This document shows, piece by piece, positions 33,401 to 45,400 of a DNA stretch of 64,000 nt; within the stretch, counting starts at the first letter, position 1; the number at the start of each line of letters is the position of its first letter. The stretch is from NCBI RefSeq assembly GCF_964340395.1, contig NC_135559.1, positions 9,542,259 to 9,606,258 of the forward strand. The letters run 5' to 3'. This DNA comes from Glandiceps talaboti. Lineage: Eukaryota > Hemichordata > Enteropneusta > Spengelidae. A program made the translations under genes and the position numbers. Under the pieces are notes generated by a model, which ran no database searches, was not told the origin of the DNA, and saw only the letters and a list, made by a program, of their open reading frames with translations.

Positions 33401-36400
33401 AAATTGGGAAGTCTTGCAAGAAATAGTGGATGCGGAAACTGACATCAACTTATAAAGACAATATAAAACTGTTCTTCCAATCTGTAATGGCTGTACATCT
33501 GATGGGAAGAAACCAATAACACAGAGACCATATGGAAAACAACGTTAACTACCTATACTAGACACTCACACAATAAAATAAAAAATCTACCTACCCCACC
33601 TATTCACAGTATTCTAAAATTGACTGTAATTGGAACCACACAAATTTTTTTATGGCCCAAGTATCCTTACTATTTGAGAACTGACAAGAGAATCCTAGTT
33701 TTTATCATTTTGACCGACAACAAACTCTGTCTTTGTTATAGAACACACTAATGTACACGTACATGTATATCTATGAGACTTTACTTTAACTCAATAATTA
33801 TGTAAATCAATGTTTCTCTTCTAAAATTTAATTACACATTACGAAGTTTTGTCATGGTAATTTTTATTGAGAATGCTAAGTTGTGCACTTCTAAATGACT
33901 TTGCATTACCACAAGACTGACTTGATTGGTCCTCAAGAGAATATACTGTACACTTGTATCAGCTACCAGATAGAATGTTTGACAAATGAAGTGAGTATTG
34001 TGTTGCTCTCTTGTAATTAATTCAATGTAGTCATTGTATTATATCGCGATATTTTATCACTTAGGCCTCGATGCACAAGGATGATTCAAGATAGACCAAC
34101 GTGATCATTACTACATTTATTCAGTAGGGTTGGCTGCCATATTGAATACTGGAAACAAGTAGTATCGAACATACTAACATACAGGACGTTTGTGTGAGGT
34201 CGTTTATAATTGCCAATATGTGTGACCTTATTAGTTATTCATATAACAGGACATTAACTTAATATCACTATTTTTTGACACATGTCCTTCATTATAGCAC
34301 TTCTAGAGATGTACTGTTTTTCTACTGTACATTTTATGAAAATACAGGTATACCATAGAATACAATATAATACTGGCTACAAACCTGAAGTCTTTGGATG
34401 GACACTATCATTTGGAATGCATCACGCACACCATAGGGCATGTATCGAAGCACTCCTACTCTAAAAAAAGACATCATTGTGTACACATAGAATATAGTCC
34501 TTGCTCGTAGTACATTTCCATTCATTGTGTACACTGTAAACATTGTAAGTAGCATGATAAAAATGAGAGAATCTGAGATTCCGTACTGTAACGCCCTCAA
34601 GTTGGCGGCTTGATGAATATGACTACACTCTTTCCTGTGAATATACAATTAAACGACACACAGTCTAGTCCCTTTACGCACTACCATCATCTCCACCGTA
34701 GAGTCAAATGGATTTCTATTGAACAGCATTACGTTCTTACCACCAACAGAGTTAATTTATGCTATTGGAGCATTGATATATATATTATGTCTGTCTGTCA
34801 GTATGTGATGGATGACTACTGACATACGCTGTTCACTTTTCCTTAGCAGGAGATTTAGCTAGATTTAGATAAACTTTGTCCGTTCGACTAGATGTGGAGA
34901 GATCGTAGAAAACGAGAATGACTACACGTACAGTAACTAGACTAAACGACACACAACACAGATGTTGTCCTTGTAGAAAGCTGTAAGATGTCAGTGGCTG
35001 GTCACAGAATAGACTGTGAATTTTCCAGTATATTTTACCAGCTTTCTCTGTGAATTTATTCTCCAATGAAGCATCACATGTTCTGATTAAAGTACGCATT
35101 TTCATATTAATTTGGGGAAGGCTGACTGTTATTTTTCTCTCCATTGGTGTTTAAACACGGCTTCATTTTGATGTTAGTAATCTGCTGCATTTTGAATATT
35201 CAGATTTAATTTTGATTTTGAACTTGTCATTGGAAGGTCTTTTGGCCATTATCCAGTATCTTTTACAGCTTTTAATAAAATGTCAATTTATGTACTAATG
35301 AAACATCAAATTCATATGATATTCGAGGAATGGATAGTCTGATTCAAATACATGTACAAGTCTTCGCATTTTAAAAAGGAAGACCGTTGTTTTTTCTCTC
35401 CAATTTGACGTTGGTAATGCTTCAACTTCAGGCCAATACACTGCTGCATTTTGAATATACACAGTTAACTGTTTTCAAATGTCACTGAGCAATCAAAATA
35501 TTATATCACCTTTGTTCCCATTCGTAACGATTCACATTTTTCAAAATTAGTATTTCACAACTACATTAAGCCATCGTTCGGGCCAGTTACACATTAAAAG
35601 AGTACAGAATCACAGTTAGGCAAGGAGTGCATTTTAAAATTACAAGCATGGAAGCATGGATGACAGCAAAGGAAACACAAATTAAAATGCAGTATATTTT
35701 GTTCTCATGTACATGTATATAATAATGTTTCCTGTGATGATTACCATGTTGTTCACATATGCATGAATGTATTGTGCACACCATGATATAAATAAACTGA
35801 AATTATTAGTACTGACAAAAAAGATTCTACAACAGACCTAGTTAACATATAGATGTTTGATGATAAAAAGAATTTGCCAATTACAGTTATTTGTGAGAAA
35901 AAAGCTTCTAATTATCACATTTCCCATGATGCAACACTCAACATGGCGGGTTTGCACTTTCCCTATCATCAGCATCTGTGGGTAATATTTGAACTAAACT
36001 TGAATGTACTATGAAGCTCTTACATGTACATTGTAAATAATAATTTTTACTTTTGCATGCTGGCATGGCACTAGTATAAGCCAAATCATTAGCAACTGCC
36101 AATAAAGTTTGTAGTACTGGACACTTGAACCTCACATCTATGATTTTATATAAATCTTATAACAACTGATACAACATGTACCATTGAACTTTGATAGATA
36201 TTAAAACCAGTGTCTACACATAAAATCTGTGCGAATGGAGACAGTCTTCAATTTACAACTGAGCCTATGATACTAACAGTATGCAAGGTATAACTGATAT
36301 TACTTTGAATGTCAATTTATACTATAAATTTATATTTTGAAACTCTCTATTCATGACGTTCTATTACCTAATTAATGCAAGTTTTTCAACATCACTGAAA

Positions 36401-42400: not shown

Positions 42401-45400
42401 TGAGATGAAGGTTAACAATAAGATAACACCCGTTGCGGAATGCATGATACCCATATTCATGGCCCAAAGTCGGCTGGTCTTGAAAAGTACAGAAATCTCA
42501 CTCCTGGGGGAAATCAAAATGCAGCAGAAATACTAGTATACAGGTTCAGACAGACTGGTCAGTCATTGAATGTGTTTATTCTAACTTAACTGACTAATTT
42601 CTACGCGACAGTGTTTTTAATTACGAGATATCCACCAAGAACTCTTAATTACGATATATCCACCAAGAGCTCTTAATTACGATATATCCACCAAGAACTC
42701 TTTATTACAATATATCCACCAAGAGCTCTTTATTACGATGTATCCACCAAGAACTCTTTATTACAATATATCCACCAAGAGCTCTTTATTACGATGTATC
42801 CACCAAGAACTCTTAAATACAATATATCCACCAAGAACTCTTTATTACGATACATCCACCAAGAACTCTTAATTACGATGTCTCCACCAAGAACTCTTAA
42901 TTACAATATATCCACCAAGAGCTCTTAATGATATATCCACCAAGAACTCTTAATTATGATACATCCACCAAGAACTCTTAATGATATATCCACCAAGAAC
43001 TCTTAATTATGATACATCCACCAAGAACTCTTAATGATATATCCACCAAGAACTCTTAATTACAATATATCCACCAAGAACTCTTAATTACGATGTCTCC
43101 ACCAAGAACTCTTAATTATGATACATCCACCAAGAACTCTTAATTACAATATATCCACCAAGAACTCTTAATTACGATATATCCACCAAGAGCTCTTAAT
43201 TACGATATATCCACCAAGAGCTCTTAATTACGATACATCCACCAAGAACTCTTAATTACGATGTCTCCACCAAGAACTCTTAAATACCCATGCTAAAAAT
43301 ACACCCTCAATAAATTACACCATAAAATAGGGGAGGAAGGTGGGGGTTGGCAGAAAGTTCAGTTCAGTTCATATCAATATTTCTATAATTTCAACATAAC
43401 ACTATTGATCAGTGTAAGACAGATTTTCACTAACTAATAATAATTTGACACTTCGAGTCAAATTTGCTAAAGCACTTTACTTGCAGTAAGAGATTTGTAG
43501 CAGATTGTATTACCACCGAACTAGGAAAGATCAGTTCATATTGCTACAAATTATACTTTCATATTGTTATCAATTATACTTTCATATTGCTAAAAATTAT
43601 TCTTTCATATCGCTACAAATGATAATTTCCTGATCAGCATACGGACTCCTGGAGGATTATCTTATTGTTATACTTTTGTTTACATTTTTGCTAGAATTTT
43701 TGCTCAAAGAGATTTGTGAGTAAGTCTGTGTTATCATAGTCTAAATGTTATTCATGGCTCTGAATCTCAAGGTCTTTCGTCACCTTGTCTAGCTCAATGA
43801 GAAATCAAGTTGATCAAGTATAGAAAGATTAGTTTGTAGTGCTATGTATTTTTTACTTTAAAACACACTACTTTTGATTTGCAGAGGGATTTTTACTGTG
43901 ATACTGTGGCACGTTTGTTAACCTTCATAAAGAACACTTGACCTGCTCACAGAGATTTGTGACAGACTGTCTTAACTATCGAGATCGAGTAAGAAAGATT
44001 ACATGTAGTTTGTAGCCTAGTGCTTCATGTAACATGTATTTCTTTACTTTATACATGATAGTTTTGATCAGCATAAGAGGGGTTTTCAGTGTGGGTCTTT
44101 GACCTTTTGTTAACCTTTGCTCAATTGCTCAACATATAATTTTTATTTAGTAACAAAAAATTATCATTTAGTAGACTGATAGGATGTTTTTTTGATGCTG
44201 AAACCAGACCTGTACTGCTACATCTGAACACAAAGCGAGTAAAAATAAAAGTTATTTAAATTTTATCACTTTTATTCTTGCTACAACAAATTTGGCATAA
44301 CTAACTTTCCTGTGTGATGATGTCATTTGTTTACATGTTCAACATATACATTTGACTGCATATGTGTGTCAATGTCTACTACATTGTACTACAGGAAAAT
44401 AAACTAAACATGGGTCCGATTCGTTTGTTTCCTTTCCCTGTTCGTAACAACTTCTGGTTGTTACTGCTTGTGTGACTACTGTTGTAATAATATAGCCAAT
44501 ACAGTATACTAAACATGTGGACATACTGTACCTGCACTATTACAATGTAAAACTGTCTGCACCATAGTTTGGATGCCAACATGATCTCTAACTAAATCAC
44601 ATCTGGTCAAACTCCCTCAATAACCACTAAAACTTGTTCATCCAATCGGTGAATCCCAACTGTTATAGTGATGTAAACAGTGTACAAGTAGCATCCTGAA
44701 CTGACAAATATACCATATTTGGACATTACATAACTGCCCCCAGTAAAGACTAACTTTATGAGGGACTGTGATTTTTGTGATTGATTTTGTGATTGATTAA
44801 CAAATACATGATGTTAATGACTGTACGAGTGGCTGTGGATGAATTTTAAATTGCATCTCAGGACTTCTAGAGTAACGACTTTGACTATACTGTGAGTGGA
44901 GGTGTAAATGGTGACGATACCATGCATATAGGACTATCTGCATGCACCACAGTATTGTACACTTATTTAGAAGAAGTTATGCATGAGATAGAAATATTGA
45001 TAAAACCCGAACCTTCTGCTAACCCCATGTCACTATAAAGACCACATAAATTACGACTAGTATATAAAGACTACAATGTAAACAACATGTATGCTTCAAT
45101 GTGACAGATAAGATGATAACAAACTGACCTTCGAACTCTTCGTATAAGGTCACTAAAAGACTTCTCCCAGGTGTACATTTTGATAACCCTCATTCCTGAG
45201 ATGATTTCATTCATAAGTCTAACTCTCTGGTCTGTCTGTACAGCTGTCTTTGCTCTGTAATAAGATGAAAAATTATGAAATATTCTATTCAGAATATGAT
45301 AATGGTGATAATCACCCAATCTTCATCTGCATCATGTTAAACTGGACAGATAAAGTCTGCCTTATTCCTGTTTAAAGGCCCATGTTTTAATCCCATGTCT

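Follow-up and report, generated by a model that had tools for sequence, protein, structure and literature searches.

Three tandem copies of a transmembrane exon, probably used one at a time, in an ABCC4-like transporter gene of the acorn worm Glandiceps talaboti

We analyzed a stretch of 64,000 nucleotides of the 590-Mb genome of the acorn worm Glandiceps talaboti, a hemichordate of the family Spengelidae (the window; contig C12, positions 9542259 to 9606258). On its minus strand, from 55160 to 18122, lies a transporter gene in which exon 8 is present as three homologous copies in tandem, here called the array gene. Its exons were mapped by comparing open reading frames with those of six ABCC4-like paralogs, which stand in tandem on the opposite strand, head to head with the array gene (C12:9611755-9742042), and were chained through GT-AG splice sites of matching phase. 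The closest solved relatives over the tested length were MRP4 chains, with ABCC5 and ABCC1 chains scoring lower, and residues 8 to 1023 aligned to residues 8 to 1005 of chain 8bjf_A, which we take to be human MRP4, with no extra TMD0. Judged by these best solved-structure matches, the gene is an ABCC4-like transporter, which bears out the class given to it in an earlier reading of the window (the original prediction).

In transcript order, the copies are 8C (42254-42503), 8B (38320-38569), and 8A (34385-34634), all on the minus strand, 250 nt long, entered in phase 2 and left in phase 0. They lie between two constitutive exons, exon 7 (45129-45254, minus strand), which ends in IRRVR plus the bases AG at 45129, i.e., two codon bases (phase 2), and exon 9 (31115-31231, minus strand), which begins with KFLLLDE at 31231 in phase 0, and any one of the copies can join the two. 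Every copy has its own AG acceptor and GT donor (gtttgt in 8A and 8B, gttagt in 8C), with splice-site scores that fall in the same range as those of the gene's remaining exons. Their protein products are only 22 to 28% identical to one another, with no indel over 83 codons, and keep recognizable starts (KEC, KEI, and SEI in 8A, 8B, and 8C, respectively) and ends (SIQRLQ, TVRRLQ, and SASRIQ). Exon 8 corresponds to MRP4 residues 305 to 387 (83 residues), and exon 7 joined to each copy matches residues 260 to 387 of 8bjf_A; the alignments to MRP4 are gapless, and for 8B the alignment shown uses another MRP4 chain (8sx7_A, 260 to 386). In all these respects, including the assignment of the segment to helices 5 and 6 of TMD1 and the strong divergence of those helices, the anatomy is as the original prediction had described it.

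The three copies were recovered by blastp of open frames against the paralog open frames (E values of 7e-17 to 5e-5). A profile hidden Markov model (HMM) built from the three copies, the exons of the paralogs, and a human segment, and thus circular for the three copies themselves, was run over frames of at least 15 codons outside N runs in the window, the 160-kb cluster, and three other loci. Within the window it found only these copies (E values of 1e-34 to 1e-31, the next match being at 1.3) and no fourth exon 8. None of 24 other exons compared with all window frames, a list that does not include exon 23, has a second copy. The cross-matches in that scan were between NBD1 and NBD2 and between exon 1 and a frame at the right end of the window (62516-62593, plus strand), which is probably exon 1 of the adjacent paralog.

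All eight ordered combinations of the copies were translated over exons 1 to 22. With any single copy, the frame has no stop in the 1,024 residues translated, which extend to exon 22. An mRNA that skips exon 8 meets a stop 27 residues past exon 7, the pairs 8C+8A and 8B+8A meet one after 86 residues, and 8C+8B, like the three copies together, after 131. Thus, only an mRNA with a single copy would give the full protein, because the length of the exon shifts the frame in every other case, and mRNAs with skipped, double, or triple inclusion would run into an early stop and likely be destroyed or yield a truncated protein. We consider it likely that 8C, 8B, and 8A form a tandem array of functional homologous alternative exons, used in a mutually exclusive manner, in an ABCC4-type exporter. 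A looser usage, in which single copies are used in a tissue-specific manner and pairs, by breaking the frame, switch the gene off through nonsense-mediated decay, would draw on the same early stops and on the introns of 2.6 to 3.7 kb around the copies, which pose no steric bar to joining one copy to another. It is unlikely, given that such arrays are defined, in the available excerpts of two papers (PMC6071210, PMC9013439), by the inclusion of exactly one exon.

The position of exon 8 in the protein gives this choice a possible meaning. In the available parts of two papers on human MRP4 (PMC10202912, PMC11948813), prostaglandins E1 and E2 (PGE1 and PGE2), methotrexate, sulindac, or cAMP contact F324 in transmembrane helix 5 (TM5) and L363, L367, and F368 in TM6, with further contacts at H152, F156, F211, R946, M990 to M992, Q994, W995, and R998. 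The first four of these residues fall inside exon 8, and there the copies differ from one another and from the human protein: positions 324/363/367/368 read M/F/I/A in 8C, A/M/F/H in 8B, and S/V/R/Y in 8A, against F/L/L/F in human MRP4, V/M/F/H in Saccoglossus, and L/F/Y/A in Ptychodera, so that 8B and Saccoglossus have M, F, and H at the last three positions in common. Outside exon 8, the array gene has kept the same pocket residues as human MRP4 at 7 of 7 positions (H152, F156, F211, R946, Q994, W995, and R998), and M990, G991, and M992 are likewise kept in the alignment. Identity among the copies is lowest at positions 353 to 372 (2 to 3 of 20) and higher at 373 to 387 (4 to 6 of 15); nine positions are invariant across the three copies and the human protein, and each copy has two hydrophobic peaks, of which 8C and 8A have a weaker second one than human MRP4 does. 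The human gene presumably has a single exon at this segment. Our best reading is that the choice of copy would swap half of the substrate pocket and leave the other half fixed, which makes the effect on the substrate path supposed in the original prediction plausible, with four TM5 and TM6 pocket positions that vary by copy.

The paralogs provide a comparison within the same genome. Exon 7 is 80 to 93% identical in the six tandem paralogs and 78% in a distant one (C12:1591545), and among its 30 genome matches those beyond these seven are at most 66% identical. In the DNA retrieved for them, each of the seven shows a single exon 8, and the profile HMM found no second copy in any paralog locus. 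The exon 8 sequences of the tandem paralogs are 64 to 100% identical to one another and 22 to 33% to the window copies. For the three paralogs that have annotated proteins (P0001 to P0003), which carry the 8A-type exon 8 of the paralogs, identity to the array gene outside exon 8 is 73 to 74%; with two other acorn worms added to the paralogs, the range is 70 to 74%. The paralogs with exon 7 at 9685585 and 9713985 encode identical exon 8 proteins and have several equal-scoring exons. P0001 to P0003 lack several of the MRP4 pocket residues outside exon 8, R998 being lost in 3 of 3 and W995 in 2 of 3, which suggests, from these residues, a change of substrate.

To place the copies, trees of exon 8 and of the remainder of the protein were compared. 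In the exon 8 tree (22 segments, 83 columns; a tree with two more distant rows agrees), 8A was sister to the exon of the paralogs (100/97) and 8C joined the 8A group (92/80), while 8B paired with Saccoglossus P0011 (89/72), a pair joined by the long-branched Ptychodera P0006 (87/93). The affinity of 8B is also seen in pairwise identity with the Saccoglossus segment, which is 40%, compared to 27% for 8C, 24% for 8A, and 30% for the best other row. A forced clade of 8A, 8B, and 8C was rejected by the approximately unbiased test (p-AU of 0.0024), a comparison run only after the first exon 8 tree had been seen. A grouping of 8C with Ptychodera, hinted at by a common F363 and A368, was also tried; it is not the best tree, with a p-AU of 0.213 (not rejected). 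In the tree of the remaining sequence, the array gene grouped with the paralogs in one clade of Glandiceps (100/100), to which Saccoglossus and Ptychodera were external. The grouping of 8B with Saccoglossus together with this clade implies copies older than the species split and suggests, with moderate support, that the array predates the separation from Saccoglossus and that the paralog family arose later and kept only the 8A type. Since the array gene has the shortest end branch among 17 (0.056), it looks like the conserved parent of that family. Short annotated fragments of the 8A type were looked for in other hemichordates, and none was present among 24 matches of 299 candidates.

A mechanism for choosing one copy might be sought in the introns. 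A stretch just upstream of the 8C acceptor (42514-42561, minus strand, as are all these elements) is a tentative docking candidate, complementary to sites upstream of 8B and 8A. The putative selectors are 39108-39122 upstream of 8B, complementary to 42547-42561, and 35181-35195 upstream of 8A, a 15-nt perfect complement of 42514-42528, with a second match, of 14 nt, at 35441-35454; the 15-mer of the 42514-42528 pairing occurs at 10 places in the genome. Another candidate pairing flanks 8A, with a 20-nt arm upstream (37135-37154) and its complement downstream (33075-33094), exact matches of this arm being found at these two places only. Measured against dinucleotide shuffles, complementarity appeared strongly enriched, with 11 pairs scoring at least 36, a shuffle mean of 2.57, and 0 of 148 shuffles reaching the observed number. 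This enrichment is gone against native segments (under a different repeat mask), where 9 pairs here compare with 1 to 16 in 14 segments, three of which hold at least 9. As for the best pair (score of 46.5, flanking 8A), 3 of 148 shuffles (0.020) attain its score and 7 of the 14 native segments contain a higher one. The feature that remained rare was the presence of three arms in the 80 nt preceding the 8C acceptor, which recurred in a single one of 148 shuffles and at roughly 1 of 4,976 control AG sites (0.003 of 364 in one segment and 0.000 in the others), with the 80-nt span picked after the matches had been seen and two of the three arms being one element that matches a duplicated target. 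The docking and selector layout is thus a tentative lead only. Drosophila Dscam1 and other arrays controlled by competing RNA structures are the nearest comparison for these candidate complementary elements near the copies; complementarity in Glandiceps is ordinary among native controls, and the pairing is putative. A 28-bp tandem repeat array (42600-43300) also lies in the intron that separates exon 7 from the copies, about 100 nt upstream of exon 8C.

If the copies are used as proposed, each mRNA would carry one of them between exons 7 and 9, that copy would supply TM5 and TM6 with the four pocket residues, the remainder of the pocket and both ATPase domains would be constant across isoforms, and one gene would give three pumps of different specificity. 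Several observations weigh against this interpretation or against the age assigned to the array. Exon 23 (21077-21267, minus strand) lacks one base within a short run of C when compared to the two paralogs aligned, whose frames continue through, a feature that the original prediction does not mention. NBD1 is in frame and the exons of NBD2, taken in their own frame, are open, but this break puts NBD2 out of frame in the assembly, so that the two NBDs are not in one frame; it may be an assembly error or mark a broken allele or gene. No annotated protein of the array gene appeared in the protein searches, which may reflect the exon 23 break or exclusions within the search. The exon 8 tree has just 83 columns and long branches, the support for 8B with Saccoglossus does not go beyond the values given above, 8C lacks a clear ortholog and falls in the 8A group in the best tree, and a single clade of all nine Glandiceps exon 8 segments is a borderline case (p-AU of 0.053). 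Finally, intron complementarity is unexceptional among the 14 native segments.

The first two of these points would suit a pseudogene in the sampled animal, whose array would be the fossil of a working ancestor. We find this quite unlikely: the remaining coding exons of the model are open and have GT-AG sites, the end branch of the gene is the shortest in the family tree, and the break is located in a run of C, a context prone to sequencing errors.

Use of 8C only, with 8A and 8B as undecayed relics, would agree with 8C being the copy closest to human MRP4 (with exon 7, E value of 4.3e-28 against the MRP4 chain, versus 7e-24 for 8A and 6e-24 for 8B) and having the top scores for donor (8.4 versus 6.7 and 6.7) and acceptor (10.2 versus 9.2 and 8.3). 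Signs of constraint on the other two copies speak against it and leave it very unlikely. At 22 to 28% identity, 8A and 8B retain the frame, the exact length, the phases, and the splice sites, an open frame of 83 codons occurs in 100 of 12,150 overlapping same-strand intron windows, and both copies have relatives that serve as exon 8 in annotated proteins.

We also asked how exon 8 varies across ABCC4 proteins, using 121 sequences (the best 120 of 275 matches plus P0004) from a database clustered at 90% identity, in which isoforms differing only in exon 8 would be hidden. Exon 8 was on the whole slightly better conserved than the rest (median of +5.5 points) over the 1,488 pairs whose identity in the remainder of the protein exceeds 62%; these pairs are not independent and include many fish. 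In 11 pairs it was about 13 or more points below the rest of the protein, and each of these involves hemichordates (P0001 to P0003, P0006, or P0011), Mytilus, Haliotis, Solemya, or P0045. Ptychodera and Saccoglossus are 69% identical elsewhere and 27% in exon 8, which would be consistent with different copies being represented in the database for the two, yet the best tree groups both segments. That the divergence of the copies is merely fast evolution of TM5 and TM6 in ABCC4 is most improbable. In its favor, pocket residues vary among insects and mites too and a single fast Glandiceps clade is not firmly rejected; against it, exon 8 is about as conserved as the rest in general, the discordant pairs are limited to the hemichordates, three molluscs, and P0045, and three intact copies would be left unexplained.

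Hemichordate-like discordance is shown by the molluscan ABCC4 proteins P0017, P0071, and P0086 and by P0045 (Mytilus and P0045 are 82% identical elsewhere and 52% in exon 8), hinting at an unrecognized exon 8 array in molluscan ABCC4 genes. In P0005, a partial prediction from the mite Oppiella nova, the region of exons 7 to 9 appears twice with the same exon 8 segment, which resembles a fusion of two tandem genes more than an exon array. A fuller scenario, which we put forward tentatively as somewhat less likely than not, joins a fixed, anion-binding half of the pocket to any one of three exchangeable TM5-TM6 halves encoded by an ancient array that predates the split of the acorn-worm families; a duplicate with 8A only would have seeded the Glandiceps family, which altered the fixed half too, and a similar array, common or convergent, would exist in molluscan ABCC4.

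The remaining exons of the array gene, assigned by the same open-frame comparison and splice chaining and all on the minus strand, are exon 1 (55160-55087), exon 2 (51749-51639), exon 3 (50948-50831), exon 4 (49949-49734), exon 5 (48957-48868), and exon 6 (48130-47967) upstream of exon 7. Exon 10 to the last (18122-30347) encode NBD1, TMD2, NBD2, and the stop codon; they were labeled E10 to E27, with the label E15 unused. Elsewhere in the window there is a 443-codon open frame (3993-5324, minus strand) matching the reduced folate carrier family (Pfam PF01770), presumably of the SLC19 type, and a 669-codon open frame with many C2H2 zinc fingers (8412-10421, plus strand).

Tandem exon arrays are established in MRP genes (PMC6071210, PMC9013439, PMC7434440, PMC9741552) and, in the available excerpts of these papers, are described as having arisen independently in several phyla (PMC6071210, PMC7434440, PMC9741552), for which Yue et al. 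2017 (RNA Biol 14:1399) is cited as the source on several independent MRP exon duplications (PMC6071210, PMC7434440). In the same excerpts, MRP is listed with eight exons (PMC6071210), and the fly and worm mrp events are unrelated yet coincide in structure, fly mrp having eight interchangeable exons (PMC9741552). The Glandiceps array resembles those of Drosophila MRP and C. elegans mrp-1 in consisting of tandem homologous internal exons of an ABCC transporter, of which one would be used at a time. It differs in its host, an ABCC4-like gene without TMD0, whereas the fly and worm arrays are in MRP1-type (ABCC1) genes, and in having paralogs that carry one array type as their sole exon. The abstract of Yue et al. 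reportedly names MRP1 genes of nematodes, flatworms, annelids, molluscs, arthropods, echinoderms, and early chordates, a list that is not known to include hemichordates or ABCC4. The original prediction knew of no such cluster in an ABCC4-type gene of this lineage, and our searches of the open-licence literature turned up no hemichordate or ABCC4 exon array; the novelty is narrowed by the MRP arrays already known from several phyla in the excerpts cited above.

If confirmed, the array would be a natural domain swap in a medically important class of exporters, with one ATPase engine and three sets of TM5 and TM6, and the residues that set MRP4 specificity would become directly testable. It would also be a case of an array member later fixed as the sole version in duplicated genes, and the exon 8 discordance test offers a cheap screen for hidden arrays from protein sequences alone.

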